Part shown: piece after piece, positions 16,471-44,841 of the stretch
Numbering within the stretch: the stretch's first letter is position 1
Layout of the letters: each line of letters opens with the position of its first letter
Source: Lentimicrobiaceae bacterium
GTDB taxonomy: Bacteria > Bacteroidota > Bacteroidia > Bacteroidales > UBA4417
Assembly: GCA_028697555.1 (NCBI GenBank)
Contig: JAQVEX010000008.1
Span: forward strand, 1 to 57,542
Direction of reading: 5' to 3'
DNA length: 57,542 bases
Program-made: the position numbers and the translations under genes
Notes under the pieces: model-generated
Database searches by the model: none
What the model was told of the DNA's origin: nothing
Seen by the model: only the letters and a program-made list of their open reading frames with translations

Positions 16471-16494
16471 TAGTCCTAAATCGTTGCTTCTTCG

Positions 16495-16519
16495 ATGTGA
16501 GTAACGTGGCGGAGCTGTG
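16495..16519 (+). promoter_or_regulatory. Leader element copy 1 (ops-like, core ACGTGGCGGAGCTGTG)
   Basis: A 25-nt block (16495-16519) in the presumed 5' leader, 25 nt after the -7 box. It is identical at 24 of 25 positions to 41814-41838, which lies in the equivalent position ahead of the polysaccharide gene train; the only difference is A/G at 16503/41822. A GTTGC precedes both copies by 5-7 nt. The core GGCGGAGCTGTG aligns with the enterobacterial ops element GGCGGTAGCGTG with two single-base gaps. Antitermination control is inferred. Confidence 0.65.
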
Positions 16520-16555
16520 CGAAGCTCTCAAAATTAACAACACAAATATTTTAAA

Positions 16556-17455
16556 ATGCAAAAAAGATTCGCTTTAATAGGAGCTGCTGGATACATTGCT
16601 CCAAGACATATGAAAGCTATTAAAGATACGGGAAACATCCTTGTGTCTGCGTTAGACGTCTTTGATAGCGTTGGTATTATTGACTCTTACTTTCCTGATG
16701 CTTCATTTTTTACCGAGCCCGAACGTTTCGATAGGCACCTTGATAAGCTCAGACGCATAAAAGGTCAGGAAGTTGAATACGTGAGCATATGCTCGCCCAA
16801 CTACCTGCACGATGCTCATATCAGAATGGCTTTACGTAACGAAGCTAATGCAATTTGCGAAAAGCCTTTGGTTCTTAATCCGTGGAATATTGATGCTTTA
16901 GAAGAAATTGAGAAAGAAACAGGAAAAAATATTTACACAATTTTACAACTACGCCTACATCCTGCGGTTATTGGCTTGAAACAAAAAATCGACAATAGCC
17001 CAAAAGACAAAATACACGATGTTGACCTTACTTACATAACCAGCAGGGGAAAATGGTATTTTTATTCGTGGAAAGGAGATGTGAAAAAATCAGGCGGATT
17101 ATCTGCCAACATTGGAATACACTTCTTTGATATGCTGACTTGGATTTTTGGCGATGTTGAAGATATTAGCTTAAACCAAAAAGAAGATTCAATTGTTAGC
17201 GGCAACATTAAATTTAAAAAAGCCAATGTCAGATGGCTACTTAGCGTTGACGAAAACCAACTTCCTGCTGATTGTAAGAAAGAAGGTAAACGAACTTTCA
17301 GAAATATTGTTGTCGACGGCGAACCTGTTGAGTTTAGTCAAGGTTTCACCGACCTACACACCGTTAGTTACCAAAACATCTTAGATGGAAAAGGATTTGG
17401 ACTAAATGACGCAAGAAAAAGTATTGAAATTGTCAGTACAATAAAAAACATGTGA
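16556..17455 (+). CDS. Gfo/Idh/MocA-family oxidoreductase, WlbA-like UDP-aminouronate 3-dehydrogenase
   Basis: A 299-aa NAD-dependent sugar dehydrogenase. The N-terminus RFALIGAAGYIAPRHMKAIK with YFPDASFFTEPERFDRH closely resembles WlbA/WbpB, which oxidise C3 of UDP-GlcNAcA on the way to UDP-2,3-diacetamido uronic acids. The family EKP motif is in CEKPLVLNPWN near residue 102, and GIHFFDMLTWIFGD carries the expected His. It is the first gene behind the ops-like leader, 19 nt before the ammonia-lyase. Its natural partner, a UDP-sugar 6-dehydrogenase, is the first gene behind the other leader copy at 41960. A role in pigment synthesis is not obvious. Confidence 0.85.
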   Translation: MQKRFALIGAAGYIAPRHMKAIKDTGNILVSALDVFDSVGIIDSYFPDASFFTEPERFDRHLDKLRRIKGQEVEYVSICSPNYLHDAHIRMALRNEANAICEKPLVLNPWNIDALEEIEKETGKNIYTILQLRLHPAVIGLKQKIDNSPKDKIHDVDLTYITSRGKWYFYSWKGDVKKSGGLSANIGIHFFDMLTWIFGDVEDISLNQKEDSIVSGNIKFKKANVRWLLSVDENQLPADCKKEGKRTFRNIVVDGEPVEFSQGFTDLHTVSYQNILDGKGFGLNDARKSIEIVSTIKNM

Positions 17456-17474
17456 TAATTATAAATACTCCGAT

Positions 17475-19013
17475 ATGTTATTCAATATAAACAATTTTAT
17501 AAAACACTTGTATTACGACGAAGATATTGTTATTCCCGACAATATTATTTCAGAAGTAAGCGACAACTTTAATTTTTTAGATGAATTTGCCAAAGGCAAA
17601 ATAATTTACGGTATTAATACGGGTTTTGGTCCTATGTCGCAACATAAGATTGAGCCAAAAAACTTAAATCAGTTGCAGTACAACCTTATCAGAAGCCATT
17701 GTACAGGCTCTGGTGTTCCAATTCCGCAACGATACGTAAAATCTGCAATGATATGCAGATTACTATCGCTGTGCAAGGCTAAATCGGGTATACACCCCGA
17801 CGCTATACTGCTACTACGCGATATGATTAACAACAACATTATTCCTGTTGTTTATTCGCATGGAAGTGTTGGCGCAAGCGGCGACTTAGTACAGTTGGCA
17901 CACATTGCTCTTGCCATGATTGGCGAAGGCGAAGTTTTTTACGAAAACAAAGTGATGAAAGCCAAAGACGCCTTCAAAAAATGCAAACTTAAGCCCTTAA
18001 AGGTACATATACGTGAAGGGCTGTCGCTAATAAACGGCACTTCGGTAATGACCGGTATTGCTGTTGTTAACATAATTCACGCCAGAAATCTTATCAACTT
18101 GGCTTTATGCCTTTCGGCAATGGTTAACGAGTTGGTTGAAAGTTTCGACGACACCTTTTCGCAAGAACTTAACTGCAGCAAACTACACTACGGTCAGAAG
18201 CATGCTGCTCATATGGTTAGCAATATATTACGCGACAGCAAACTGCTTAAGAAAAGGGACAAATCTCTTTACAAAAAGAATAATCAGAAGAATGAGATAA
18301 TTTCCGAAAGAGTGCAAGAGTACTACTCTTTAAGATGCTTCCCACAAGTTTTAGGACCAATCATCGATACTATCGAATATGCCGAAAATGTTATAATAAA
18401 CGAAGCCAATTCATCTAACGATAATCCTGTGGTCGACACATTCACAAAAACAGTTTATCACGGTTGCAACTTCCACGGCGATTATATTTCCTTAGAAATG
18501 GATAAAGTGAAAATATGCATGACCAAACTATCTATGCTGATTGAAAGACAATTGAACTTTTTACTTAATCCTAAACTAAATGAAAGATTTCCTGCATTTC
18601 TGAACTTGGGCAAATTGGGCTTAAACCTTGGAATGCAAGCCATGCAGTTCACTGCTACATCAACCACAGCCGAAAACCAAACTTTGAGCTTCCCCAATTA
18701 CGTTCACAGTATTCCTAACAACTTAGATAATCAGGATATAGTGAGTATGGGAACAAACTCGGCTCTGATAGCCCAAAAAGTAATAAACAACACTTACGAA
18801 ATAATGTCTATTTACGTAATTGCGGTGTTGCAAGCGTACCGAATAGTGAACAAATTCGATAAAATGGCATCGGCTACGTTAGATTTTTATAAAGAATTTG
18901 ACCAAATAGCACCTGTTTTTATTGAAGACACAACAAAATACGATGTAATAAGAGATGTAACCGGTTATTTGAAAAATCAGTCCTTACAAAAATATTTATC
19001 AACAATAGTATAA
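17475..19013 (+). CDS. Tyrosine ammonia-lyase (aromatic amino acid lyase, MIO family)
   Basis: A 512-aa MIO-dependent lyase expected to convert tyrosine to trans-4-coumarate, the starter of flexirubin-type pigments. The self-cyclising triad is Ala134-Ser135-Gly136 in GSVGASGDLVQ. NTGFGPMSQHKI, LQYNLIRSHCTGSG, INGTSVMTGI, QEYYSLRCFPQVLGP and FTATSTTAENQ match, from memory, the Flavobacterium johnsoniae TAL nearly word for word. The selectivity pair is Ser-His (IRSHC), as in that enzyme, so histidine ammonia-lyase is the main alternative; cluster context strongly favours TAL. The stop codon overlaps the next start by 1 nt. Confidence 0.9.
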   Translation: MLFNINNFIKHLYYDEDIVIPDNIISEVSDNFNFLDEFAKGKIIYGINTGFGPMSQHKIEPKNLNQLQYNLIRSHCTGSGVPIPQRYVKSAMICRLLSLCKAKSGIHPDAILLLRDMINNNIIPVVYSHGSVGASGDLVQLAHIALAMIGEGEVFYENKVMKAKDAFKKCKLKPLKVHIREGLSLINGTSVMTGIAVVNIIHARNLINLALCLSAMVNELVESFDDTFSQELNCSKLHYGQKHAAHMVSNILRDSKLLKKRDKSLYKKNNQKNEIISERVQEYYSLRCFPQVLGPIIDTIEYAENVIINEANSSNDNPVVDTFTKTVYHGCNFHGDYISLEMDKVKICMTKLSMLIERQLNFLLNPKLNERFPAFLNLGKLGLNLGMQAMQFTATSTTAENQTLSFPNYVHSIPNNLDNQDIVSMGTNSALIAQKVINNTYEIMSIYVIAVLQAYRIVNKFDKMASATLDFYKEFDQIAPVFIEDTTKYDVIRDVTGYLKNQSLQKYLSTIV

Positions 19014-19741
19014 TGAAACACGCATTAGTTACAGGAGGTTCGAGAGGCATAGGCAGAGCTATATGTATAGAACTGTCGAACTTGGGCTACAACGTTATTA
19101 TCAACTACAAAGGCAACAAGGCTGCCGCCGAAGAAACCCTTAATATGATAAAAAATAACGGCAAAAGCGCCGAATTGCTTCAGTTCGACATTTCAAATGT
19201 TGATGAAGTTGATAGCCAATTAGAAAAGTGGTTTAACAATAACGAAGGCAGTTATATTTCGGTGTTGGTTAATAACGCCGGTATAAGAAACGACAGTTTG
19301 ATGCTTTGGATGCAAAACGAACAATGGAAAAATGTTATTGATACTAACTTAAACGGATTTTTCTACGTAACCCGTCGCTTAATAAAAGATATGCTGGTGC
19401 GTAAGTCAGGACGCATAATAAATATTGTTTCGCTTTCGGGAATTAAAGGATTGCCCGGTCAAACCAACTACTCGGCTGCAAAGGCAGCAGTTATTGGAGC
19501 TACAAAGGCATTGGCTCAAGAAGTTGGCAGAAAAGGCGTTACCGTTAATGCTATCGCTCCGGGATACATTAAATCGGAAATGACTGAAGATTTAGACGAG
19601 AAAGAACTGTCGAAACTTGTCCCTGTAAACCGTTTTGGACTGCCCGAAGAAGTAGCTTACCTCGTAGGCGTTCTGACCAACGAAAGAGCGGCATATATTA
19701 CAGGCGAGGTAATATCAGTAAACGGAGGTATTCACACGTAA
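19013..19741 (+). CDS. 3-oxoacyl-ACP reductase (FabG-like SDR) of the pigment cluster
   Basis: A 242-aa short-chain dehydrogenase/reductase that would reduce 3-ketoacyl-ACP during polyene extension. It has the NADP-binding GGSRGIGRAI motif at the N-terminus, NNAG at ~88-91, and the catalytic Tyr153-x3-Lys157 in NYSAAK, with the C-terminal YITGEVISVNGG. It overlaps the lyase gene by 1 nt and precedes the first ketosynthase by 16 nt. It is the only ketoreductase seen in the cluster. Confidence 0.9.
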   Translation: MKHALVTGGSRGIGRAICIELSNLGYNVIINYKGNKAAAEETLNMIKNNGKSAELLQFDISNVDEVDSQLEKWFNNNEGSYISVLVNNAGIRNDSLMLWMQNEQWKNVIDTNLNGFFYVTRRLIKDMLVRKSGRIINIVSLSGIKGLPGQTNYSAAKAAVIGATKALAQEVGRKGVTVNAIAPGYIKSEMTEDLDEKELSKLVPVNRFGLPEEVAYLVGVLTNERAAYITGEVISVNGGIHT

Positions 19742-19757
19742 ACAACAAAAATAAATT

Positions 19758-20975
19758 ATGAGGAGAGTTGTAGTAACAGGTATTGGAATTTATTCAAGTA
19801 TTGGAAAAAACATCGACGAAGTAACTCAGTCGTTGCGTGCCGGCAAATCGGGTATAGGCATTGACCCGCTTAGAACCGAATACGGTTACCAATCGCCTTT
19901 AACCGGCATATTGGAAGCTCCAAACTTGAAAGGTAAATTAGAAAGACGATTAAGGTCGGGCATGGCTGAAGAAACAGAATACGCTTACGTTGCCACGCAA
20001 GAAGCCTTAGATATGGCTAACATAGACCTTGATTTTTTGGAAAACAACGTTGTAGGTATTTTCTACGGAAACGATTCGTCGGCAAAAGCCGTTATAGAAG
20101 CCCACAATATTGCCGTTGAGAAAAAAGACACCATGCTTATGGGCTCTGGGGCAATATTCAAATCGATGAACTCGACGGTTACAATGAATTTGTCGGTAAT
20201 ATACAAAATAAAGGGCATAAACATGACTATAAGTGCTGCCTGCGCCAGCGGTTCGCATTCGGTAGGATTGGGTTTACTATTCATACAAAACGGTCTGCAA
20301 GACATTGTAATATGCGGCGGAGCTCAAGAAACCAACTTGTATTCAATGGGTAGTTTTGATGCTTTAGATGCTTTTTCAAAAAGAATAGATGAACCTACAA
20401 AAGCTTCACGCCCATTCGACCGCGACAGAGACGGACTTGTGCCAAGCGGCGGAGCTGCAACACTTATTTTGGAAGAATACGAACACGCTAAGAAAAGAGG
20501 TGCAAATATTCTTGCCGAAATCGTCAGCTACGGATTTTCATCAAATGGCGAACACATCTCGCAACCCAACAATGTAGGCTCGCTTATAGCTATGAAAATG
20601 GCTTTAGATAATGCTAAATTATCCCCAGCCGACATAGACTACATCAACGCACACGCAACATCTACTCCTTTGGGTGATAGAAACGAAGCTATGGCAATAA
20701 GCTCTCTGTTTGGCGAATATAAAACACCCGTGAGTTCGACAAAATCGATGACAGGACACGAGTGCTGGATGGCAGGTGCAAGCGAGATAGTATATTCAAT
20801 ACTAATGATGAAAAACAATTTCATTGCTCCGAATATTAATTTCGAAAACCCCGACGAAGAGTCAGAGAAAATTAACATAATTGGGTCAACAACCGAAGCT
20901 AAGTTAGACACTGTTCTTTCTAACTCTTTCGGCTTTGGTGGCACCAACAGCGCCATAGTTATAAAAAACTTATAA
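19758..20975 (+). CDS. Beta-ketoacyl-ACP synthase 1 of the pigment cluster (FabF-like, intact)
   Basis: A 405-aa thiolase-fold decarboxylating ketosynthase. The Cys-His-His triad is complete: Cys162 in SAACASGSHSVG, His299 in NAHATSTPLGD and His334 in KSMTGHECWMAGA. The C-terminal gate motif SFGFGGTNSAIV is intact. Three intact ketosynthases exist in the cluster; this one is followed by an acyl carrier protein gene. Which extension or priming step it performs cannot be told from sequence. Confidence 0.93.
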   Translation: MRRVVVTGIGIYSSIGKNIDEVTQSLRAGKSGIGIDPLRTEYGYQSPLTGILEAPNLKGKLERRLRSGMAEETEYAYVATQEALDMANIDLDFLENNVVGIFYGNDSSAKAVIEAHNIAVEKKDTMLMGSGAIFKSMNSTVTMNLSVIYKIKGINMTISAACASGSHSVGLGLLFIQNGLQDIVICGGAQETNLYSMGSFDALDAFSKRIDEPTKASRPFDRDRDGLVPSGGAATLILEEYEHAKKRGANILAEIVSYGFSSNGEHISQPNNVGSLIAMKMALDNAKLSPADIDYINAHATSTPLGDRNEAMAISSLFGEYKTPVSSTKSMTGHECWMAGASEIVYSILMMKNNFIAPNINFENPDEESEKINIIGSTTEAKLDTVLSNSFGFGGTNSAIVIKNL

Positions 20976-21011
20976 ATCCGATTATTATTTAAATAAATAA
21001 TTCAAAATTTA

Positions 21012-21019
21012 TATCTTTG
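21012..21019 (+). promoter_or_regulatory. Possible internal -7 box (TATCTTTG) ahead of the acyl carrier protein
   Basis: TATCTTTG matches TAnnTTTG exactly, 23 nt upstream of the ATG at 21043, within the 67-nt gap that is the widest one in the first part of the pigment train. No -33 TTTG is seen at the usual distance. It could give extra expression of the ACP. Confidence 0.4.
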
Positions 21020-21042
21020 CAAATGTTAACATATTTAATATT

Positions 21043-21294
21043 ATGACAAGAACAGAAATTGAAAATAAAGTCAATACTTTTTTAGTTGATGAAATTGAAG
21101 TCGAACCCCATCTTATAAAGCCCGAAGCTTTATTAAAAGAAGATTTAGGTATCGACAGCCTTGACTTTGTTGACATTGTAGTTATAGTTGAGCAAATTTT
21201 CGGATATAGAATAAAAGCGGAAGAAATGGCAGAGGTTCTTACTCTTAACCAGTTTTACGATTTTATAGAAAACGTCCTTAATTCAAAAGCATGA
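21043..21294 (+). CDS. Acyl carrier protein 1
   Basis: An 83-aa ACP. The phosphopantetheine attachment site is Ser39 in DLGIDSLDFVDI. It carries growing polyene intermediates between the cluster's ketosynthases, reductase and dehydratases. It has a possible promoter of its own and overlaps the acyltransferase start by 4 nt. No phosphopantetheinyl transferase gene is seen in the window. Confidence 0.92.
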   Translation: MTRTEIENKVNTFLVDEIEVEPHLIKPEALLKEDLGIDSLDFVDIVVIVEQIFGYRIKAEEMAEVLTLNQFYDFIENVLNSKA

Positions 21295-22196
21295 TATCAA
21301 ACGATACATGGCAGGGAAAAACTCAAATCAGCAAAATAAGTTACAATCTTTCCCTTTTTTTTATTAGAAATTTTGGTGTAATTCCCGGCTACGCAATAGG
21401 ACTTGTGTTGGTTCCATTTTTTCTAATAATTCATCATAGAGAAACAAAAAACACATTCAGATATTTTAGAAGAAATCAGCAATTTGGCGTACTGAAATCC
21501 ACATTTTCAGTAGTTAAAAATCATATACTTTTTGCTTTTGTAATTGCCGATAAGTTTGCCGTATTATCGGGCTACAAAAAAGGATTTAGCCTCAAAACGG
21601 TCGACCAACACATTTTTGATGATGTAGCCAACAATAAAAATAGCAGTGGATTGCTTGTACAATCGCATGTGGGAAATTCGGAAATTGTTGCTTTCTTTCT
21701 TAAATCCGAGAATAAAATTATTCACTCTCTTGTTTACGGATTTGAGGCAAAGCACATACAAAAACACAGAACGGAATTACTTGCAAAACAGAATACAAAG
21801 CTAATACCGGTTGTAGACCCCTATTCGCATTTTATATCAATTTATCAGGCTGTTGATAACCGCGACCTTATGGGCGTTTCGGGTGATAGAACCTACGAAG
21901 GCTCAACCAATATAGAATGCGAGTTTTTGAACAATAAAGCCTTGTTCCCATTAAACCCCTTTCAAATTGCCACCAAATTAAATCTCCCTGTAATTGTGCT
22001 TTTTACTATCAGAAAAGGATATAAAAAATATACTACATATATCTATAGAATTGAAGTCGATGGCGACAATCTACCTTTGAAAGAAAAATCGGTTCTGCTT
22101 CTGAAAGAATATGTAAAAACCCTCGAGACAGTTGTAAAAAAGTATCCCTTGCAGTGGTTTAATTATTACGATTTTTGGAATTACAGAAAACATTAA
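21291..22196 (+). CDS. LpxL/HtrB-type lysophospholipid acyltransferase
   Basis: A 301-aa membrane-associated acyltransferase with a hydrophobic N-terminal helix (GVIPGYAIGLVLVPFFLII) and the family pattern VQSHVGNSEIVAFF, where the His takes the place of the H-x4-D/E motif (HVGNSE). GVSGDRTYEGS resembles the second acceptor motif. Aryl polyene clusters commonly carry such lipid A-type acyltransferases, thought to attach the polyene to a membrane lipid. It starts inside the end of the ACP gene (4-nt overlap). Confidence 0.8.
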   Translation: MISNDTWQGKTQISKISYNLSLFFIRNFGVIPGYAIGLVLVPFFLIIHHRETKNTFRYFRRNQQFGVLKSTFSVVKNHILFAFVIADKFAVLSGYKKGFSLKTVDQHIFDDVANNKNSSGLLVQSHVGNSEIVAFFLKSENKIIHSLVYGFEAKHIQKHRTELLAKQNTKLIPVVDPYSHFISIYQAVDNRDLMGVSGDRTYEGSTNIECEFLNNKALFPLNPFQIATKLNLPVIVLFTIRKGYKKYTTYIYRIEVDGDNLPLKEKSVLLLKEYVKTLETVVKKYPLQWFNYYDFWNYRKH

Positions 22197-22205
22197 TTTC
22201 ACATT

Positions 22206-23270
22206 ATGGCAATAAAACGAAGTAATAACTATAAATCGGCTCATCAGGCTCAGTTTGATGCCCAAAAAATAGCATTCGCTCCAATAATGTTTCAAGCTGC
22301 AAGATGTTTGGTAAAATTTGGCATATTGGAAGTGTTAAATAATAACGAAAATGGCATTTCATACAAAGACGTTGCAGACAAGTGTAATATATCCGAATAT
22401 GCAGCCAAAGTATTGCTAGAAGCAGGATTACACATTGAAGTAGTTGAAGAAAAAAACGATTTGTTTTTCTTAACCAAAACCGGATGGTTTTTACTAACAG
22501 ACGACCTAACAATAGCCAATATGAACTTTGTTCACGATGTAAATTACAATGGCTTTTACTATTTAGATGAAGCTCTGCTAAACGGAAAACCCAAAGGTTT
22601 AAAAGTTTTTGGTAAATGGGATACTATTTATCAAGCACTTTCGGAACTTCCCGAACAGGTCAGAAAAAGCTGGTTCGAGTTCGACCACTACTACTCCGAC
22701 TTCTCATTTCCATTGGCTTTGCCTATAATTTTCTCCGATAATCCTAAAAAGATTTTAGACATTGGCGGAAATACCGGAAAATTTGCAATAGAATGTGCAA
22801 CATTCAACCCCGATGTTAAGGTAACCATTTTAGACCTTCCGGGACAGCTGAAAGATGCGGAAAAAAATATAAAAAAGGCAGGATTTGAAAACAGAATAGA
22901 TTTACAAGCTGCCAACATCCTGAATTTTGACAAAAAATATCCAAAAGGCTACGATGTTGTGTGGATGAGCCAATTTTTAGATTGTTTCTCGCAAGAGCAA
23001 ATTGTAAAAATTTTATTGAACGTGAAAGAAACACTAAACCCCAACGGCAAAATATTCATAATGGAAACATTTTGGGATAACCAAAAAACGGTAGCCGGTT
23101 CGTATTGCCTAACAGCAACAAGTTTATACTTTACCTGCATGGCAAACGGCAACAGCCAGATGTACAAATTTGACGACATGGCAAAACTAATTGAAAAAGC
23201 CGGACTTAAAATCAACCGCACCCATGATAACATAGGCATAAGCCACACAATTGTTGAATGTACGATATGA
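22206..23270 (+). CDS. SAM-dependent O-methyltransferase (dimerisation domain + class I fold)
   Basis: 354 aa. Residues ~15-95 form a winged-helix dimerisation domain (ARCLVKFGILEVLNNNENGIS, AAKVLLEAGLH). The Rossmann domain has motif I LDIGGNTGKFAIECA, the acidic motif II TILDLPGQ, and DVVWMSQFLDCFSQEQIVKIL. The layout resembles plant/bacterial small-molecule O-methyltransferases. Likely role: methylating the aryl head group or the polyene carboxylate; substrate unknown. It overlaps the next gene by 13 nt, suggesting translational coupling. Confidence 0.85.
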   Translation: MAIKRSNNYKSAHQAQFDAQKIAFAPIMFQAARCLVKFGILEVLNNNENGISYKDVADKCNISEYAAKVLLEAGLHIEVVEEKNDLFFLTKTGWFLLTDDLTIANMNFVHDVNYNGFYYLDEALLNGKPKGLKVFGKWDTIYQALSELPEQVRKSWFEFDHYYSDFSFPLALPIIFSDNPKKILDIGGNTGKFAIECATFNPDVKVTILDLPGQLKDAEKNIKKAGFENRIDLQAANILNFDKKYPKGYDVVWMSQFLDCFSQEQIVKILLNVKETLNPNGKIFIMETFWDNQKTVAGSYCLTATSLYFTCMANGNSQMYKFDDMAKLIEKAGLKINRTHDNIGISHTIVECTI

Positions 23271-23686
23271 ATGATATAATTAATATAAATGTTGAAACAC
23301 TTTTGCCGCAAAAGCGACCTTTTATCTTTATTGATAAGTTGGTTGAATGCAGTCAGGAATTTGCAAAAACTGTTTTCAACATTAAACCCGACAATGTTTT
23401 GGTAATCGACAATGTGCTTAGCGAAGCCGGATTGATGGAAAATATTGCCCAAACTTGCGCTGCTCGTATAGGGTACTTAAATATGAAGGGCGGTAAAGGA
23501 GTAAACGTAGGCGTTATTGGCAGTGTTAAAGATTTTGAAATAAAAATGCTTCCTGCTGCAAATCAAACAATAGAAACTTGTATCAAGGTTTTAAATGTTT
23601 TTGCCAGCATAACCATGATTGAAGCTATTGTTAAACTTAACGATGAAATTATCGCCACAGGCGAAATGAAAGTATCCGAACAATGA
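23258..23686 (+). CDS. Hotdog-fold dehydratase subunit with Glu but no His (ApeI/ApeP-type)
   Basis: A 142-aa FabZ-like hotdog protein. QKRPFIFIDKLVEC is the characteristic N-terminal hotdog strand. The helix that carries the FabZ catalytic Glu is well kept (LSEAGLMENIAQTCAARIG, Glu in MENIAQ). Fourteen residues upstream, where FabZ has the His of HFPG, there is Val (DNVLVIDN). A partner with the opposite pattern is encoded at 29931. Predicted to form a heterodimeric 3-hydroxyacyl-ACP dehydratase with it, as shown for aryl polyene ApeI:ApeP. Confidence 0.82.
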   Translation: MYDMNDIININVETLLPQKRPFIFIDKLVECSQEFAKTVFNIKPDNVLVIDNVLSEAGLMENIAQTCAARIGYLNMKGGKGVNVGVIGSVKDFEIKMLPAANQTIETCIKVLNVFASITMIEAIVKLNDEIIATGEMKVSEQ

Positions 23687-24102
23687 AAATACTATCGGCA
23701 ACAAAAGAAATAGAAATCCGCTTTAGCGAAGTTGACTCTATGGGAATAGTGTGGCACGGAGCTTATGCAAAGTATTTTGAAGATGCTCGCGAAGCTTTTG
23801 GAAAAAAATACGGAATCGGATACTTAGACATTAAAAAAAATGGATACTACGCTCCTTTGGTAAATTTAGATTTTAGCTTCAAAAAACCTTTGACCTACGG
23901 CGACAAAGCTATAGTTGAAGCTATTTACGAACCTTGTGCAGCAGCGAAAATAAAGTACAAATACAATATTTTTGATTTGTCGCAAAAGATAGTAATCGCA
24001 ACGGGAAGTAGCGTGCAAGTTTTCTTAAACGCCGACTACCAACTTGAGTGGAATACACCGGAATTTTTTCTGAAATGGAAACAAAAATATAATTTGTTGT
24101 AA
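23683..24102 (+). CDS. 4HBT-family acyl thioesterase
   Basis: A 139-aa single-hotdog thioesterase of the 4-hydroxybenzoyl-CoA/YbgC group. The signature FSEVDSMGIVWHGAYAKYFEDAREAF contains the catalytic Asp18 and the GIVWHGAYAKY loop. It likely releases or edits polyene-ACP thioesters. Overlaps of 4 nt upstream and 1 nt downstream place it firmly in the operon. Confidence 0.88.
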   Translation: MKILSATKEIEIRFSEVDSMGIVWHGAYAKYFEDAREAFGKKYGIGYLDIKKNGYYAPLVNLDFSFKKPLTYGDKAIVEAIYEPCAAAKIKYKYNIFDLSQKIVIATGSSVQVFLNADYQLEWNTPEFFLKWKQKYNLL

Positions 24103-25262: not shown

Positions 25263-25263
25263 C

Positions 25264-25854: not shown

Positions 25855-25889
25855 ATTAGAGCATATAAATTTTTTAAATTTAAGTACAT

Positions 25890-26147
25890 ATGAAATCATT
25901 AATTGATACGCTAAAGGAAGAGATAATAGAAGTTTTAAATTTAGAAGAGATATCTCCCGAAGATATTGACGAAAAAGCCCCTTTGTTTGGCGCCGGCTTA
26001 GGCTTAGACTCTATTGATGCTCTCGAACTAATAGTACTAATGGAAAGAAACTACGGTATAAAACTAAAAGATGCCAATGAAGGTAGAGAGATTTTTTCTT
26101 CGGTAGAAACAATGGCGCAGTACATTGAAAAACATCGTACAAAATAA
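25890..26147 (+). CDS. Acyl carrier protein 2
   Basis: An 85-aa ACP with phosphopantetheine Ser41 in GLGLDSIDALELIVLMERNYGI. It differs clearly from ACP 1 (83 aa), so the two probably serve different steps, for example starter loading and extension. It lies directly upstream of ketosynthase 3. Confidence 0.92.
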   Translation: MKSLIDTLKEEIIEVLNLEEISPEDIDEKAPLFGAGLGLDSIDALELIVLMERNYGIKLKDANEGREIFSSVETMAQYIEKHRTK

Positions 26148-26148
26148 A

Positions 26149-27348: not shown

Positions 27349-27353
27349 TTTTT

Positions 27354-28771: not shown

Positions 28772-28782
28772 AATTCTAAATC

Positions 28783-34768: not shown

Positions 34769-36282
34769 AAAAACACGATGTAATAATTATTGGGAGTGGC
34801 TTGGGCGGACTTATGTGTGCTTTTTTGTTGAGCAAATTCGGCTACAATGTTTTGGTTTTGGAAAAAAACAATCAAATCGGCGGTTGCTTGCAAACATTCA
34901 AACGCAAGGGTATTACTTTCGACACAGGAATGCACTACATAGGAAGTCTGAAAGAAGGACAAATTATGAATACATTTTTCAAGTACTTCAATCTGACCGA
35001 CAATGTTAAGTTACAAGAGCTTAATCCATCGGCTTACGATACAATTAGCATCAACGGCACAGACTTCGATTTTCCTGTAGGTTACGATAATTTGAAAGAA
35101 AATTTGCTAAACTCTTTCGGTTCCGAAAAAAAAGCCATCGACACATACATAAAGGATATAAAGCAAATTGCAAATTCTTCGCCTTTTGTAAACCTGAAAA
35201 AGCTCGATGGATACGAGTTTACCAACAATCCTTACAACAACATCAGCGTTTCTGAATATATCAGCAAAATAACTTCAAACCCCAATTTGCAAAATGTTTT
35301 GGCAGGCAATCTGTTTTTGTACGGCGGAGAAAAAAATATTACACCATTGTATATTCACGCTCAAATCAGAAATTTTTACACGCAAGGAGCGTACAGAATT
35401 GTTGGCGGAAGTGACAGCATTGCCAAAAGTTTAGAATCGTCAATTTTGAAAAATGGCGGTAAAATTCTTGCCAATTGCGAAGTTACGGAAATTAAATGCG
35501 ATAGCTCCAAAGCCGAATACGTTGTTACAAAAGGCAACGAAAAATTCTACGCCGATCATTTTATATCTGATATTCATCCTCAAACTTTGTTAAAACTAAT
35601 TGATACTCCATTGCTACGCAAAGCGTACAGAAACAGAATTAACAAAATAAACAACACGGTTTCTAATTTTGGCATATACATTAAGTTTAAAGACGATGCC
35701 AAACTTGCGTACAAAAACACGAACTTGTACAGATTTGCATGCGACAGCGTTTGGGACTATATTCCTGATGATAATTTCACCACACCAAAAAGCTATCTGC
35801 TTATGCATCAAGCTGAAAGCATAAATCAAAAATATGCCAAAAGTGCGGTAATCCTAACTCCTATGAAATTTGAATCGGTGGAAAAATGGGAAAACTCATT
35901 TACAGGAAAAAGAGATAAATCTTACTACGATTTTAAACAAGAATGCGCCGAAAAAGTTTTTTCTCTCGTCAGTCAATTTGACAACGAAATTATAAACGCA
36001 ATAGACTACTACGAAACCTCATCGCCGCTTACATACCGCGATTATACTTATACCGCAATGGGTTCAACTTACGGAATTATGCACAACGCCGACAACATAG
36101 CCGAAAGCTATATTCCACACAAAACAAAAATACCCAATCTGCTACTTACCGGACAAAACATCAATACTCACGGTATGTTGGGCGTTACCATAGGTTCAAT
36201 CATAACATGTAGTTCGCTTATAGACTACAACACGCTAATAAAAGACATTACAAATTCTACAAATCATACAAATGAAATTTAA
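34765..36282 (+). CDS. FAD-dependent oxidoreductase, phytoene desaturase/retinol saturase-like
   Basis: 505 aa from the ATG at 34765 (ATGA overlap with the upstream stop; an ATG at 34759 is also in frame). The dinucleotide-binding motif IIIGSGLGGLMCAFLLSKFG is followed by LEKNNQIGGCLQTF and FDTGMHYIGSL, typical of carotenoid desaturase and all-trans-retinol saturase relatives. The C-terminal FAD motif is GQNINTHGMLGVTIGS. It could reduce or desaturate the polyene chain. It overlaps the radical SAM gene by 11 nt. Confidence 0.87.
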   Translation: MKKHDVIIIGSGLGGLMCAFLLSKFGYNVLVLEKNNQIGGCLQTFKRKGITFDTGMHYIGSLKEGQIMNTFFKYFNLTDNVKLQELNPSAYDTISINGTDFDFPVGYDNLKENLLNSFGSEKKAIDTYIKDIKQIANSSPFVNLKKLDGYEFTNNPYNNISVSEYISKITSNPNLQNVLAGNLFLYGGEKNITPLYIHAQIRNFYTQGAYRIVGGSDSIAKSLESSILKNGGKILANCEVTEIKCDSSKAEYVVTKGNEKFYADHFISDIHPQTLLKLIDTPLLRKAYRNRINKINNTVSNFGIYIKFKDDAKLAYKNTNLYRFACDSVWDYIPDDNFTTPKSYLLMHQAESINQKYAKSAVILTPMKFESVEKWENSFTGKRDKSYYDFKQECAEKVFSLVSQFDNEIINAIDYYETSSPLTYRDYTYTAMGSTYGIMHNADNIAESYIPHKTKIPNLLLTGQNINTHGMLGVTIGSIITCSSLIDYNTLIKDITNSTNHTNEI

Positions 36283-37546
36283 ACTCATATACCCTAAGTG
36301 GAAAAAACTAACGGGGCAAACTACTTTCAATCTGCCGCCTCACGGTCCTGTAGTTATGGCAGCATCGCTCCCCGACTATGTTTCGGTATCATTTACCGAC
36401 GAAAATATTGAAGAAATCGACTTTGACGAAGAATGCGATTTTGTCGGCATCTCGATGATGCTTAGCACACAAGCTAACAGGGGCTGGCAAATAGCAAAGG
36501 AATTTAGAGCAAGAGGAAAAAAAGTGATTTTCGGAGGAATTGCAACAATGCTTCATGCCGAAGAAACAATGCAGTACGCCGATTCGGTTTTCCTTGGCGA
36601 AAGCGAAACTCGCATGGAAGAAGTTTTTAACGATTTCAGAAACAACAAGCTCAAAAAACTGTACAATTATATCAATCAGTTTCCTCCTATAGAATGTGTG
36701 GGACCTGCCCGCAGAGACTTGCTTAAAAAGGAATATTACAATCATAAAGGCGTGCAAATGGTCGATTTGTTCCACGCCTCCAGAGGTTGCCGATTTAATT
36801 GCTATCCCTGCGCTGTCGGCTACTTAGGCGGAAGACAATTTAGAGCCAGACCAATAGATAAAGCTATTGAAGAATTGGAAACTATTGAAAACAATCGCTT
36901 GTTCATAGTCGATAACTCGCTTGCTCAAAATACCGAGTGGGAAAAAGAGCTATTCAGAAATATGATACCGCTCAAAAAGAAATGGATTAGCCACACCATA
37001 GAAGACAAGCCAGAAGTGTTAGACCTTGCAGCACAAGCCGGTGCTTGGTACGTGTATCAGGCTGTATTCGACACATCCGATTATATAAAAGAGCGTATCA
37101 AACGCTACCACGACTACGGAATAGGCGTCGAAGGCACTATCTTGCTCGGGCTAGACAACCAAACCGAAGATGATATAAAACGTTTAATCGACTTCTTACT
37201 TGAAATAGACTTGGATTTAGCCGAATTTACAGTTCTATCGCCATTCCCACACACCAAAGCATACAACGACCTTAAGAGAGAAAATCGCATCTTCGACACC
37301 AATTGGGATAATTACAATGCCGAAAAGGTGGTTTATTATCCTAAGCACATGTCGCCCGAAAGACTCAGCGAGCTGTATCATTACGCTTGGGAAAGATTTT
37401 ATGAAGATGAAAGCCAGGAACAAAAAATGTTTAAACTGTTTACCAAAGTAATGATGAGAGAAATGGAAGACGGCACTTACAAGCCCAGAAATAGGAAACT
37501 AGTCAACAAAAGTTTTGGTAAAAAAGTAAAACGCAACATAAATTAA
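36272..37546 (+). CDS. Radical SAM protein with B12-binding-like N-terminal domain
   Basis: 424 aa. The radical SAM [4Fe-4S] motif is Cys173-x3-Cys177-x2-Cys180 (RGCRFNCYPC). The N-terminal ~130 residues have the Rossmann-like pattern of B12-binding domains (DFVGISMMLSTQANRG, VIFGGIATMLHAEE, ADSVFLGESE) but lack the cobalamin DxHxxG motif. The C-terminal part includes ILLGLDNQTEDDIKRLIDFL and SPFPHTKAYNDL. Such proteins occur in pigment and hopanoid-type clusters. Possible C-methylation or ring chemistry; substrate unknown. Confidence 0.85.
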   Translation: MKFKLIYPKWKKLTGQTTFNLPPHGPVVMAASLPDYVSVSFTDENIEEIDFDEECDFVGISMMLSTQANRGWQIAKEFRARGKKVIFGGIATMLHAEETMQYADSVFLGESETRMEEVFNDFRNNKLKKLYNYINQFPPIECVGPARRDLLKKEYYNHKGVQMVDLFHASRGCRFNCYPCAVGYLGGRQFRARPIDKAIEELETIENNRLFIVDNSLAQNTEWEKELFRNMIPLKKKWISHTIEDKPEVLDLAAQAGAWYVYQAVFDTSDYIKERIKRYHDYGIGVEGTILLGLDNQTEDDIKRLIDFLLEIDLDLAEFTVLSPFPHTKAYNDLKRENRIFDTNWDNYNAEKVVYYPKHMSPERLSELYHYAWERFYEDESQEQKMFKLFTKVMMREMEDGTYKPRNRKLVNKSFGKKVKRNIN

Positions 37547-37550
37547 AAAA

Positions 37551-37922
37551 ATGAAAGTATCGCATCAATATATAGACGAAATTTTTGAATTTGAAGGTCA
37601 ATGGGGAATACCTTCTCGTTGCGGAATTACTATTACCGAAAAAGACGACAAGTACTACGTTGTAGTTACCGAGTTGTACGACGAGAACAAAGGCACTCCT
37701 ATAGCGAATGTCAGTGCTTCGTTGGCTCAACAAATCTGCAACAAATACGAAATACCTTTGGAAAATCTTGTTTATTTTGAAAGGAATCCCGAGACCAATT
37801 CAAAATTGTCGTTTTACGGAGAAGAAGTCTTTAAAGTAGATTTTGATATCTTTGAAAATAAACTTGCAAATCCTAGGTATTCAAAAATTGATCCCGAAGA
37901 ACTAAATAAAATTATTGATTAG
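37551..37922 (+). CDS. Conserved-looking hypothetical protein at the end of the first pigment block
   Basis: A 123-aa acidic protein with no signal peptide or membrane segment, 4 nt after the radical SAM gene. Readable features: HQYIDEIFEFEGQWGIPSRCG, then two beta strands (KYYVVVTELYDENKGTPIAN), a helix (SASLAQQICNKYEIP) and FERNPETNSKLSF. No family recognised. Close spacing says it belongs to the operon. Its TAG stop (37920-37922) is where the heptad array begins. Confidence 0.7.
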   Translation: MKVSHQYIDEIFEFEGQWGIPSRCGITITEKDDKYYVVVTELYDENKGTPIANVSASLAQQICNKYEIPLENLVYFERNPETNSKLSFYGEEVFKVDFDIFENKLANPRYSKIDPEELNKIID

Positions 37923-38047
37923 TGGTTGGTGGTTAGTGGTTGGTGATGAGTGATGAGTGATGAGTGATGAGTGATGAGTGATGAGTGATGGGTGATGGGT
38001 GGCTGGTGGCTGGTGATTGGTGGTGAGTGATGAGTGATGAGTGGTAG
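37922..38047 (+). repeat. Eighteen-unit 7-nt tandem array (GTGATGA type)
   Basis: From 37922 to 38047 the sequence divides into 18 heptads in unbroken register: GTGGTTG, GTGGTTA, GTGGTTG, six GTGATGA, two GTGATGG, two GTGGCTG, GTGATTG, GTGGTGA, two GTGATGA and GTGGTAG. All units start GTG. The first G is the last base of the upstream TAG stop codon. Confidence 0.9.
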
Positions 38048-38095
38048 AAAGTCCAAAGTTATGAGTCAAGAGTTGTTCCCAAATTTTCGGGACAA

Positions 38096-38200
38096 AACTC
38101 GAAACTCAGAACTCAGAACTCAGAACTCGAAACTAACCCGTACCACGCACCACGCACCACGCAACCCGCAACCCGCACCACGCAACCCGAAACCCGCACC
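38096..38200 (+). repeat. Fifteen-unit 7-nt array (AACTCAG and ACGCACC types)
   Basis: Fifteen heptads in register: AACTCGA, three AACTCAG, AACTCGA, AACTAAC, CCGTACC, two ACGCACC, ACGCAAC, CCGCAAC, CCGCACC, ACGCAAC, CCGAAAC, CCGCACC. It is A/C-rich where the preceding array is G/T-rich, so the two could pair partly in RNA. The 48 nt between them are only loosely periodic. The rest of the gap to 38269 is AT-rich. Confidence 0.85.
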
Positions 38201-38241
38201 CTTTATCGAACATTAATAATTATCTATTTCAAATCTTATAT

Positions 38242-38249
38242 TATCTTTA
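38242..38249 (+). promoter_or_regulatory. Possible -7 box (TATCTTTA) restarting transcription after the heptad arrays
   Basis: TATCTTTA differs from TAnnTTTG only in the last base and ends 20 nt before the ATG at 38270. It would allow the second pigment block (hydrolase, AMP-ligase, acyltransferase) to be transcribed separately. Confidence 0.4.
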
Positions 38250-38269
38250 TCCTTTTATAACTTTTGAAT

Positions 38270-39115
38270 ATGAATCTGTCAATTATATTAATAAGCATTT
38301 TATCGTTAGTTTTAAACGTTAAGCCTCCAGGTGAAACTGTAAAGTTGTGGAACGACAACGACGACATAAAAGGAAAAACAAAGCTTTATGTTAGTTATCC
38401 TACAGCCGATAAACATAACGGTTCGGCTATAATAATTTGTCCCGGAGGCAGCTATCATCACTTAGGCTTGAAACACGAAGGTCATCAAGTTGCCGAATGG
38501 TTCAACGAACTTGGCTTTACAACATTTGTGTTGCGTTATCGCGTTGGCTTTTATGGTTGGAGTCATCCGGCAATGATACAAGATGCACAAAAAGCAATTC
38601 TGTGGGTAAGAAACAATGCCGAATATTATAAAATATCTCCCGAAAAAGTCGGAATTATAGGATTTTCGGCAGGTGGTCATTTAGCAGCATCAACAGCTAT
38701 TTTAAGCGACTCAAATTTTATAAACCATGCAAGCCAAAAAGACAATATACTCAAACCCGATTTTGCCGTGCTGATGTATCCGGTTATTTCTCTTACCGAC
38801 AGCATTGGACACAAAAGGTCTGCCAGAAACTTGTTAGGAAAAAACTACACTCATAAAACTAAAGAAATGCTTTCGCTTGAATTTAACAATTCCCAAAGCA
38901 CCTCACCTATTCTTATTATTCATGCTATAGACGACGAAGTTGTAAACTATAAAAATAGTGTGTATTTTTACAAAAATATTGAAAACAAAAACTCTGCAAA
39001 TAAACTAATTTTGTACCAAGACGGTGGACACGGCTTCGGCGCAAAAAATCGTCCAATTGTGGAAAAATGGAAACAAGACTGCCTTAATTGGCTTATTGAT
39101 AATAATTTATATTAA
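38270..39115 (+). CDS. Alpha/beta hydrolase (esterase/xylan-esterase-like)
   Basis: 281 aa from the ATG at 38270; an in-frame TTG at 38264 is unlikely. A short hydrophobic N-terminus (LSIILISILSLVLNV) suggests export. The nucleophile Ser is in IIGFSAGGHLAAS; Asp in HAIDDEVVNY and His in QDGGHGFG complete a triad. The oxyanion region is ICPGGSYHHLGLKHEGHQVA. It resembles the BD-FAE/acetyl-xylan esterase group. Whether it belongs to pigment processing or is a neighbour caught between blocks is unclear. Confidence 0.85.
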   Translation: MNLSIILISILSLVLNVKPPGETVKLWNDNDDIKGKTKLYVSYPTADKHNGSAIIICPGGSYHHLGLKHEGHQVAEWFNELGFTTFVLRYRVGFYGWSHPAMIQDAQKAILWVRNNAEYYKISPEKVGIIGFSAGGHLAASTAILSDSNFINHASQKDNILKPDFAVLMYPVISLTDSIGHKRSARNLLGKNYTHKTKEMLSLEFNNSQSTSPILIIHAIDDEVVNYKNSVYFYKNIENKNSANKLILYQDGGHGFGAKNRPIVEKWKQDCLNWLIDNNLY

Positions 39116-39136
39116 ACAGCACCAAAAATTATATAC

Positions 39137-40456
39137 ATGAAATTTGTCCCTTCTATAGAATTTGAACCTCCTGAAATTATTAAAAAATTTCAGGACGAAA
39201 AGCTTAAAGAAAACCTGCTGTATTTGAAAAACAATTCAAAATACTATCAAAACGTTTTTAACAAAAACAATATAAAAATCGAGAAAATAAATAGTGTTTC
39301 CGATTTAAGCAATATTCCGTTCACTACCAAAACCGATTTGCACAACTACAACACTGATTTTTTGTGCGTTGAAAGAGAAAAAATTGTCGATTATATTACC
39401 ACATCAGGAACTTTGGGCAATCCAGTAACATTTGCAATGACCGACAAAGACTTAGAGCGACTTGCATATAACGAAGCAATTTCTTTCACCTGTGCCGGTG
39501 GAAAATCAACCGACATATATCAACTAATGACCACCATAGACAAGCGCTTTATGGCGGGACTTGCATACTTTTTGGGTATCAGAAAAATGGGTGCGGGAAT
39601 TATTAGGGTTGGCAATGGCGTTGCCGAACTTCAGTGGGACAGCATCAAGCGATTTAATCCAAATACGATTATTGTAGTCCCCAGCTTTATTTTGAGAGTT
39701 ATTAAATACGCCGAAGACAACGGAATTGACTATAAAAATTCCAGCATAAAAAAAGCCGTATGTATAGGCGAAAACTTGCGCGATACCAATTTAGAACTTA
39801 ATCTTTTGGGTAGCAAAATAAAAGAAAAATGGGATATTCAACTGTTCTCGACATACGCCTCTACCGAAATGGCAACAACATTTTGCGAATGTGAATACGG
39901 CTGCGGCGGACACGAACATCCAGAACTTATCATCACCGAACTTGTTGACGATGACGGAAACGTAGTTGAAGATGGACAAATAGGCGAATTGTGCGTTACT
40001 ACACTTGGAGTTGAAGGAATGCCCTTGCTTAGGTTTAAAACCGGCGATATGGCTAAGTTTTACACCGAAAAATGCAAATGCGGCAGAACGACCAAACGTA
40101 TTAGCCCAATTATAGGCAGAAAGAACCAAATGATTAAATTTAAAGGTACTACCCTATTCCCTTCGGCTATCTTCGAAGTATTAGACAACACTGACTTGGT
40201 TAACAATTACTACGTAGAAGTGAGCACCAACGACATAGGAACCGACGATATAGAAATTTTTGTCAGCACAAACTGCGAAACAGAAAATAATTATAAATTT
40301 GTAGCCCAACTAAAAGATAAATTTAAAGCACGATTACGCGTTACTCCCAGAATATCAATTACAAGTAGCGACGTGATAAACAAAGTTCAAGGTAAAGAAA
40401 TAAACAGAAAACCTAAAAAATTTATAGATAAAAGAAGCAATAACCATGACAATTAA
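39137..40456 (+). CDS. AMP-forming ligase (phenylacetate-CoA ligase-like), presumed 4-coumarate activation
   Basis: A 439-aa adenylate-forming enzyme of the PaaK type. The P-loop is TTSGTLGNPVTFAM. FSTYASTEMATTFCECEYGCGGHEHPE and GELCVTTLGVEGMPLLRFKTGD carry the A5 and A7-like core motifs with several Cys residues, as in PaaK relatives that have a metal site. The hinge is ISPIIGRKNQMIKFKG. Together with the ammonia-lyase at 17475 it would load 4-coumarate onto an ACP or CoA. It overlaps the next gene by 11 nt. Confidence 0.85.
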   Translation: MKFVPSIEFEPPEIIKKFQDEKLKENLLYLKNNSKYYQNVFNKNNIKIEKINSVSDLSNIPFTTKTDLHNYNTDFLCVEREKIVDYITTSGTLGNPVTFAMTDKDLERLAYNEAISFTCAGGKSTDIYQLMTTIDKRFMAGLAYFLGIRKMGAGIIRVGNGVAELQWDSIKRFNPNTIIVVPSFILRVIKYAEDNGIDYKNSSIKKAVCIGENLRDTNLELNLLGSKIKEKWDIQLFSTYASTEMATTFCECEYGCGGHEHPELIITELVDDDGNVVEDGQIGELCVTTLGVEGMPLLRFKTGDMAKFYTEKCKCGRTTKRISPIIGRKNQMIKFKGTTLFPSAIFEVLDNTDLVNNYYVEVSTNDIGTDDIEIFVSTNCETENNYKFVAQLKDKFKARLRVTPRISITSSDVINKVQGKEINRKPKKFIDKRSNNHDN

Positions 40457-41573
40457 CACATTTGACGATATAAGACCGTACTACGACAGCGAAGTTAACG
40501 AGGCAATGTTGCGTATAGCCGATGATCCTCTGTTTGAGAATATAGCCCGCTTTTTGTACCCCGACGGAGATATTGAAGAGGTGAAAAATAATTTGCGTAA
40601 GATAAACACCACCCACGACTTTCAAGTACAATTTATGGATTATGCAATTAAAAAAATTGCAGAACTTACAGCAAACAAATTTACTACCGAAGGATTTGAA
40701 AAACTAGATAAAAACAAATCATATCTCTTTGTTTCAAACCACCGCGATATTCTGCTAGACTCAGCTCTACTGCAAATAGCACTGCACGAAAACGGTTTAA
40801 AAACTTCGGAAATAACTTTCGGCAGCAACCTAATGCATCCACAACTTGCAGTAGATATTGGCAAATCTAACAAAATGTTTAAAGTAAAACGAAGCGGAAC
40901 CCCTCGCGAATTTTACTTCAACTCTTTGGAACTATCGAAATATATACGCTACACTATCCTGGATAAAAAAGAATCGGTTTGGATTGCTCAACGAAACGGC
41001 AGAACCAAAAACGGCAACGACAAAACCGACCAAGGACTAATAAAAATGTTTGCCTCATCGGCTAATAATACCGAAGAATTGTTGCAATTAAACATCACTC
41101 CTGTAACTATTTCTTACCAATGGGAAACCTGCGACATTGAAAAAGTTTACGAAAACTTTGTCAACCTGACAGGAAAATACGAGAAAAAACCAGGCGAAGA
41201 CCTCAACAGCATCATCAAAGGTATTACTCAGTACAAAGGTAATATACACATCAACATTGGCGATACAATAACTCGCGACAATTATGAAATGGAAGACGTA
41301 TTAGCCAAAGACATTAATCGTATTGTTGAAATTATCGACAATGATGTTCACAAAAACTACAAACTTTGGGACAATAATTACATCGCCCACGACCTACTTA
41401 ACAACAAAAACACATACATTGATGTGAAATACAACAGCGGCGACAGACAAAATTTTGTCGAAAAAATGAACGAGAAAATATCAGCAATAGAAACAGATGA
41501 TAAAGATACTTTAGTAAATTTGTATCTTGATATTTATTCAAATCCTGTTGTTAATCAAATTAATAGATTATGA
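40446..41573 (+). CDS. PlsC-family glycerol-phosphate acyltransferase homologue
   Basis: A 375-aa acyltransferase with the H-x4-D motif in SNHRDILLDSALL (~residues 97-109) and a second conserved segment around WIAQRNGRTKNGNDKTDQG, in the place of the FPEGTRS motif. No clear signal peptide. It is the third acyltransferase domain in the pigment cluster (with 21291 and the fusion at 31070). It is the last gene before the leader of the polysaccharide cluster. Confidence 0.82.
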   Translation: MTINTFDDIRPYYDSEVNEAMLRIADDPLFENIARFLYPDGDIEEVKNNLRKINTTHDFQVQFMDYAIKKIAELTANKFTTEGFEKLDKNKSYLFVSNHRDILLDSALLQIALHENGLKTSEITFGSNLMHPQLAVDIGKSNKMFKVKRSGTPREFYFNSLELSKYIRYTILDKKESVWIAQRNGRTKNGNDKTDQGLIKMFASSANNTEELLQLNITPVTISYQWETCDIEKVYENFVNLTGKYEKKPGEDLNSIIKGITQYKGNIHINIGDTITRDNYEMEDVLAKDINRIVEIIDNDVHKNYKLWDNNYIAHDLLNNKNTYIDVKYNSGDRQNFVEKMNEKISAIETDDKDTLVNLYLDIYSNPVVNQINRL

Positions 41574-41784
41574 AATGAATAGTCTTTACTCCCCATAAAG
41601 GTGAAAAAATGAAATTTTCAACAAAGTGTACCAACTTTTTTTCAGAACTATGCACTTTTATTATACTCGCCAAACCTGATACTAAATCAAAAACTGTGGT
41701 TATTAGTCTTAACTGTTTTAAACTGCAATTTATATATATAAACAAATTAATAATCATTTAACCTTACTTATTATATTAATTTAT

Positions 41785-41792
41785 TATTTTTG
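41785..41792 (+). promoter_or_regulatory. -7 promoter box (TATTTTTG) of the polysaccharide train
   Basis: Matches TAnnTTTG exactly; a TTTA near 41757-41760 is the only candidate for a -33 element. The start codon is at 41960, so the untranslated leader is about 160 nt, unusually long for this window. Confidence 0.6.
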
Positions 41793-41813
41793 CGAGATTA
41801 AAGGTTGCAACGT

Positions 41814-41838
41814 ATGTGAGTGACGTGGCGGAGCTGTG
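41814..41838 (+). promoter_or_regulatory. Leader element copy 2 (ops-like, core ACGTGGCGGAGCTGTG)
   Basis: Identical at 24 of 25 positions to 16495-16519 and located 22 nt after a -7 box (25 nt for copy 1 when counted from the shared TGTGAG). GTTGC precedes it at 41804-41808, as it does copy 1. The sequence outside the block is different, so this is a focused conserved element and not a recent duplication of the region. Confidence 0.65.
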
Positions 41839-44340: not shown

Positions 44341-44378
44341 ATATTAGTTTAAAGTTTAAGGTTCAAAGGCTGAATTAA

Positions 44379-44752: not shown

Positions 44753-44841
44753 GTCAATTTATAACTAAACAAATAAATTTAATTTATTAAACCTTAAACG
44801 TGCTTTGGCACAAAATTAAACATTAAACATCTTTTTGAAGT

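Follow-up and report, generated by a model that had tools for sequence, protein, structure and literature searches.

A candidate UpxY-loading element shared by a pigment operon and a surface-glycan operon in a Lentimicrobiaceae bacterium

The repeated leader element and its two operons

The stretch of DNA considered here, which we call the window, covers 57,542 nt (positions 1 to 57,542 of contig JAQVEX010000008.1, assembly GCA_028697555.1) from a Lentimicrobiaceae bacterium, and carries two long trains of open reading frames (ORFs), each of which is led by a copy of the same short element (Table 1). An earlier note on this DNA had described the element as a 25-nt block that resembles the enterobacterial ops site. 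The block at 16495-16519 on the forward strand indeed recurs at 41814-41838 with a single mismatch (A/G at block position 9), GTTGC stands before each copy and the flanks differ, all as the note had claimed; the likeness stops at the element borders. The two TAnnTTTG boxes lie 25 and 22 nt upstream of the 24-mer that forms the element, and the block ends 36 nt (copy 1) and 121 nt (copy 2) before the first gene.

Table 1. Features of the two leaders and of the operons behind them
Feature	Position	Strand	Remarks
Box TACCTTTG	16463..16470	+	Bacteroidota -7-like box of the first leader; sequence, box scan
CGTTGC	16482..16487	+	5' arm of predicted nascent RNA hairpin, first leader; partner GTAACG of the element
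Upstream arm TGTGAGTAA, copy 1	16496..16504	+	Part of bipartite element (phylum consensus TGKGACTBA, -23 to -15)
Ops-like core GGCGGAGCTGTG, copy 1	16508..16519	+	-11 to +1, register inferred from ops; ops geometry from PMC5995543, PMC11001881
Possible minihairpin GCGGAGC, copy 1	16509-16515	+	
Operon 1, ORF train	16556..41573	+	Gaps of at most 341 nt; GFO/IDH/MocA oxidoreductase, aromatic amino acid lyase, short-chain dehydrogenase/reductase, several ketoacyl synthases, ORF resembling acyl carrier protein, acyltransferases, O-methyltransferase, LolA, glycosyltransferase, MMPL exporter, amine oxidase, B12/radical SAM
Box TATTTTTG	41785..41792	+	-7-like box of the second leader
GGTTGCA	41803..41809	+	Possible 5' arm, second leader; pairing not the predicted optimum
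Upstream arm TGTGAGTGA, copy 2	41815..41823	+	
Ops-like core GGCGGAGCTGTG, copy 2	41827..41838	+	
Possible minihairpin GCGGAGC, copy 2	41828-41834	+	
Operon 2, ORF train	41960..57013	+	Nearly reaches the contig end; gaps of at most 501 nt among the ORFs listed; UDP-sugar dehydrogenase, nucleotidyl transferase (RfbA-like), dTDP-glucose dehydratase-like (RfbB-like), FdtA-like, DegT aminotransferase, Wzx-type flippase, glycosyltransferases (WbsX)

Comparison of the first leader with its own genome recovers the second copy (E 1.1e-4) and no further match. Likewise, a scan of 2,325,906 bases (88 contigs, completeness 97.9) with up to three mismatches yields no third copy of the block and no match of its backwards control, and the relaxed consensus, also with three mismatches, returns the same two sites and nothing more. 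The earlier note had regarded dispersal through the genome as evidence against its proposal, and with just two copies in both the strict and the relaxed scan we have ruled out a dispersed repeat in this genome. No Rfam family scores above its gathering threshold in the window.

The gene content of the two trains agrees with the earlier description of a pigment operon and a polysaccharide operon. We take the first to be an aryl-polyene or flexirubin-like cluster, a name that comes from general knowledge, and one of its gaps contains the 83-aa ORF that by eye resembles an acyl carrier protein. The description fits less well at the start of the pigment operon, where the GFO/IDH/MocA oxidoreductase is of a type found in sugar operons. 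This first gene (16556-17455) shares 65% identity with the gene that comes first after the element in another genome (G113), and the next gene in that genome encodes a UDP-sugar dehydrogenase with 57% identity to the first gene of operon 2 (41960-43258). At this locus (L146, 168-2408) the oxidoreductase, WlbA-like by eye, and the dehydrogenase adjoin behind one element; in the window, the counterparts of the pair are the opening genes of two different operons, each led by the element, and the pigment cluster separates them. Searches with four genes of the pigment operon gave no match of 45% identity and 150 residues in the other element loci examined, and sugar genes used as queries did match such loci by the same criterion. 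On a simple reading, the pigment genes may have come to lie behind a glycan leader.

The specialised NusG paralogue that the earlier note anticipated, and whose absence it would have counted against its proposal, is present. The genome has two NusG-domain genes, one of which encodes the housekeeping NusG (180 bits; neighbours named by eye as EF-Tu-like and ribosomal-protein-L11-like) and the other a protein of the UpxY family (158 bits on NF033644, cut-off 100). The latter aligns to RfaH with E 1.7e-7 and scores 83 bits on the RfaH model, below the cut-off of 144.5. Its gene is the first gene of neither element-led operon and is located on a different contig (C54), away from both, where its neighbours resemble by eye a thioesterase and a DEAD-box helicase. 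Judged from these neighbours, this upxY is outside any obvious polysaccharide operon, as is RfaH. In the segment corresponding to the RfaH NGN beta-hairpin, the UpxY proteins among 26 sequences listed nearly all carry W-S-D-R-like letters, which would be compatible with contact to duplex DNA. A search for UpxZ gave no match in 119 genomes including this one, and its absence is not established because the control genomes gave no match either.

Distribution of the element and of UpxY

A survey of 198 genomes, made up of this genome and its relatives, was the source of the first consensus; the window block with at most three mismatches occurs in 18 of them, and its backwards control in one. In a set of 392 genomes from the phylum, a loose pattern allowing no mismatches matched 42 (backwards control 0), and TGKGACTBANNNGGCGRAGCTGTR with two mismatches matched 86 (backwards control 6, counted from the table). 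By comparing genomes, the element was resolved into two parts, the arm TGKGACTBA and the core GGCGRAGCTGTR, which are separated by NNN. Most loose-pattern matches listed read TGTGACT or TGGGACT in the arm, and most matching genomes have few copies.

From the matches listed we collected 116 sites, each a distinct genome-string pair; others, mainly those with two mismatches, were left out, and the collection is biased toward the pattern. With site numbering that presumes the ops register, T-23, G-22, A-19, A-15, G-10, C-9, G-8, A-6, G-5 and C-4 are invariant, T-1 is found in 112/116 and G-11 in 111/116. The fixed positions are partly built in, because the sites were retrieved with the pattern. 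Even so, positions left free in the loose pattern are non-random, and -7 is A or G in all 116 sites and in every loose-pattern match listed.

The element occurs almost only in UpxY-carrying Bacteroidota genomes. UpxY scores above its cut-off in 198 of the 392 phylum genomes, and 84 of the 86 element genomes have it when judged by best E (Fisher p 3e-27); the totals of 198 and 87 are the search program's own. In the family counts, a best E of at most 1e-28 substitutes for the 100-bit cut-off. Across the 16 families of mixed status that were found, the element is present in 65/158 UpxY-positive genomes and in 1/121 UpxY-negative genomes (stratified p 5e-16), and 64/157 UpxY-positive genomes retain it when genome G263 is removed. 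When four of these families (f124, f125, f130 and f136) are omitted, the remaining 12 give 60/75 versus 1/84 (p 6e-16).

A second set of 237 genomes from the class, 197 of which were absent from the first set, repeats this pattern. The 197 further genomes include two (G036 and G044) that also belonged to the 198-genome survey. Among them, the element is found in 44 of 56 UpxY-positive genomes, leaving 12 with no match, and in 2 of 141 UpxY-negative genomes (Fisher p 3e-30), or 46 matching genomes in all. Both of these UpxY-negative matches carry changes inside the core, and the backwards control matched 4 of the 237. Element presence is therefore nested inside UpxY presence in two genome sets, as predicted.

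Furthermore, the element is often found beside upxY itself. Of the 58 sites listed for the second set, 21 have upxY no more than 1.5 kb away, and 20 of these 21 share its strand; 15 of the 20 precede the matched UpxY start by 7 to 96 nt and five are 59 to 717 nt past its end. The first set contributes 31 pairs, 30 of them within 1.5 kb and one (in G317) about 7 kb apart. These pairs show strand and spacing, not frequency, because they were picked for having site and gene listed on a shared contig. Counting all pairs within 1.5 kb, 50/51 are on one strand (30 of the 51 being those chosen for a shared contig). Among six contigs retrieved by the UpxY protein alone, two carry the element directly after upxY. 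On contig CAIXHD010000547.1 (uncultured Bacteroidetes), upxY is followed by the element and then by a reading frame that appears by eye to encode a DegT-type aminotransferase. A weight matrix applied to 30 upxY loci gave a strong match (at least 25 bits) in seven and a weaker variant in two.

Gene context was examined at 40 loci hand-picked from the 198-genome survey and the loose-pattern matches. The element stands between long ORFs at 38 of them, and at the other two the first possible start of an ORF falls at the element edge; the next ORF runs in the direction of the element at 39. A Pfam scan covered at most three ORFs per locus, all downstream of the element and on its strand (111 in total; 25 of 103 families listed), and the families listed include GDP-mannose dehydratase (8), UDP-sugar dehydrogenase (7), polysaccharide export (7) and NusG (5). 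Among 50 upstream ORFs, NusG was found six times and every other listed family at most twice.

Some loci have unusual characteristics. At two of them (L093, 2125-2148; L095, 2124-2147), a variant core GGGCGGAGCGTR, near ops without T6, lies downstream of upxY, and the arm TGTGACTGA is kept. Seven matches in genome G148 (L021, L025, L027-L031) have a common longer upstream stretch (...GTTAGTACAATTA...) and possibly constitute a family of duplicated leaders. Genomes G263 (L137-L140) and G495 (L141, L142) contain dispersed palindromic repeats with an element look-alike of the AGTCCTGT...GGGACT type, possibly derived from the element or convergent. A contig labelled Spirochaetota (JAKQXK010000551.1, L037) has the element just after upxY, for which horizontal transfer, a wider distribution and mis-binning are the alternatives. 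In two Phocaeicola massiliensis loci (L175, L179), GCGNAGC motifs are seen by eye in upxY leaders that otherwise have no consensus. Finally, only two exact matches were found in 2.9 million viral contigs, and a phage or viral origin was set aside; one of the two (L172, 2828-2851) sits among large ORFs and is possibly due to chance.

A putative loading site and its alternatives

Given the sequence of the element, its orientation and its association with upxY, we judge it very probable that the single UpxY-family NusG paralogue of this genome uses the block as a bipartite loading site, much as RfaH uses ops. Specifically, RNA polymerase would pause with the core GGCGGAGCTGTG inside the bubble, and the exposed non-template strand would fold as a GCG-N-AGC minihairpin. 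Published chemistry lends credence to such a fold: GNA loops in DNA are described as extraordinarily stable when two G-C pairs close them, and GCGAAGC melts at 78 C (PMC4686876). The 9-nt arm behind the polymerase (TGTGAGTRA), which at -23 to -15 would occupy upstream duplex DNA and the RNA just leaving the polymerase, might be read as duplex, as the 3' arm of a nascent RNA hairpin, or as both. UpxY would dock on this paused complex and then travel with the polymerase, which could thereby cross the long operons without premature termination. If so, one trans-acting UpxY would co-regulate the pigment operon and the surface-glycan operon. The earlier proposal of an antitermination site that co-regulates pigment and glycan is thus favoured by the co-occurrence and linkage with UpxY, and was too narrow in that the upstream RNA, and probably duplex DNA, also seem to belong to the signal.

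Several observations weigh against this interpretation. No UpxY-associated element was found in 114 of the 198 UpxY-positive genomes of the first set, so that other UpxY proteins must use other or diverged sites, and matches are rare in two families (3/57 UpxY-positive genomes in f136 and 1/21 in f124). The weight matrix finds no consensus in five Bacteroidaceae upxY loci or in one Spirosoma locus; in the same five, GCGNAGC is seen by eye in two of the five leaders and once in coding sequence. Co-occurrence was assessed by family strata, not on a tree, and some of the two-mismatch matches will be due to chance. Position +1 is G in 66 and A in 46 of the 116 sites, and a pause favours G. Nearest-neighbour DNA folding gives no structure for the core and a weak one for ops, and the DNA hairpin rests on published chemistry because the folding program does not reproduce it. 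The RNA stem with the arm is predicted for copy 1, and for copy 2 it is not the optimum. The spacing from a -7 box, which the earlier note had described and which holds for both window copies, does not extend to a general rule: a strict box precedes only 11/101 sites (200 shuffles: mean 3.5, maximum 9), and we have rejected it as a defining part of the motif despite this enrichment. G263 has 51 matches, and the inspected copies, together with some in G495, sit within longer palindromic repeats; the loci of G263 were excluded from the box count and from the RNA-pairing test below.

The RNA evidence invites a different explanation, in which a hairpin of the nascent leader is the target of UpxY or of a different protein, in the manner of LoaP, and the conserved DNA represents no more than its 3' arm and flank. 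After near-duplicate flanks were merged (88 to 80 sites), upstream RNA was found to pair better with its own arm than with the arms of other sites (mean -0.65 kcal/mol), and 0/2000 cognate-arm permutations were as low (p 0.0005; relatedness of sites not removed). Relative to shuffled upstream sequence, 15/80 sites reach p<0.05 and 62/80 reach p<0.5. There is precedent for such a system, in that LoaP binds an RNA hairpin (PMC12691694). However, the other 65 of the 80 sites have no significant stem (p>=0.05), and the most constant part of the element, GCGRAGC with T-1, lies downstream of the predicted stem and has no covariation. We therefore regard a purely RNA-based motif as unlikely, and retain the nascent stem as a possible component of the bipartite loading site.

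It is even less probable that a DNA-binding activator uses the element as an ordinary operator, or that the element is a leader motif acting on translation, with a link to upxY that merely reflects shared polysaccharide neighbourhoods. In the window the element does lie between a promoter-like box and the first gene, and many sites adjoin polysaccharide genes. Yet the upxY of this genome is on another contig beside unrelated genes while two element copies are present, UpxY-negative genomes nearly never match (1/121 within the same families and 2/141 in the further set), and the element resembles ops and has an asymmetric, oriented sequence. Chance landing of a dispersed repeat or mobile palindrome in leaders would account for the palindromic copies in G263 and G495, but is very improbable given two copies with differing flanks in this genome, low copy numbers in most matching genomes, intergenic and co-directional placement at the 40 examined loci, and the two exact viral matches.

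If the element is indeed a loading site for UpxY, its distribution might reflect something older. With moderate confidence, we lean towards the view that the Bacteroidota have an ancestral, phylum-wide UpxY-loading code, comprising a bipartite DNA signal, an extra-stable GCG-N-AGC minihairpin in the non-template strand, one base shorter than the ops hairpin, and a nascent RNA stem. Such a code would have been reached independently of, or before, RfaH and ops, and would serve trans-acting regulons that include more than capsules, in this case a pigment cluster behind a glycan leader. With a searchable consensus that follows UpxY through many genomes, UpxY regulons could be recognised from sequence; it makes the loading step testable via base changes, and it predicts the pigment cluster as a UpxY target. 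It would also suggest that recruitment through a non-template-strand hairpin is general and no oddity of RfaH.

Comparison with known antiterminators

The likeness to ops that the earlier note had seen in a gapped alignment goes further than the note proposed. The window cores do not have the ops sequence itself, GGCGGTAGCGTG, and are identical to it at 8/12 ungapped positions. As with ops, the 12-nt core GGCGRAGCTGTR has GG at its upstream end, G-T-G at its pause end and T-1 at the pause position, so that length and the GG...TG frame are shared. The ops non-template hairpin has the pairs G2:C9, C3:G8 and G4:A7 (PMC11001881), and the core letters permit the same two G-C pairs and the G-A pair. 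These letters are found in 116/116 collected sites, where the search patterns required or favoured them. RfaH reads the loop bases G5 and T6, the flanks of ops cause the pause, and the double change C3G+G8C in ops brought recruitment back in part (PMC5995543). In contrast, the loop here would have one base (GCG-R-AGC) rather than two, and there is no T6 to flip out. The element also differs from ops in having a further conserved arm (-23 to -15) and a tendency to form an RNA stem; the RfaH NGN beta-hairpin contacts upstream DNA (PMC11001881). Both elements stand in the 5' leaders of long surface-polymer operons, and both proteins are NusG paralogues encoded apart from their targets, although the scores given above place the protein here in the UpxY family rather than with RfaH. 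As of 2020, Escherichia coli RfaH was described as the sole specialised NusG paralogue with a detailed mode of recruitment (PMC7593976).

The LoaP system of the Bacillota (dfn-mln leaders) likewise combines a specialised NusG paralogue, long biosynthetic operons, an RNA hairpin and a pause, as described in the available portion of PMC12691694. Unlike the element, LoaP acts through binding of the RNA hairpin, and a shared non-template DNA sequence is not reported for it in that portion of the paper. Among the titles and abstract openings listed for open-licence papers on UpxY, RfaH, NusG paralogues and pigments, neither this consensus nor a pigment target is reported, and three element strings searched in open-licence literature text gave only an unrelated match. 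The shared phylum-wide site and the inclusion of a pigment operon in a UpxY regulon appear to be new aspects.

The closest relatives are the capsule UpxY proteins of Bacteroides, which belong to the same protein family. Work by Saba in 2024 reportedly found that Bacteroides UpxY recognises a paused polymerase via exposed non-template and upstream duplex DNA, with RNA hairpins aiding. This mode of recognition would fit both parts of the proposed site, which raises our confidence in the mechanism and lowers its novelty. The statement of the earlier note that UpxY recruitment sites are ill defined therefore needs qualification, since recruitment in Bacteroides has already been studied. The upstream-duplex contact is also cited from Saba 2024 in PMC12691694, and UpxY prevents termination in the capsule leaders of Bacteroides fragilis (Chatzidaki-Livanis 2009, cited in PMC7819879). 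In Bacteroides, every UpxY acts on the one operon that encodes it and is accompanied by UpxZ inhibitors, whereas in this genome two operons would share the element and depend on a single UpxY encoded elsewhere.

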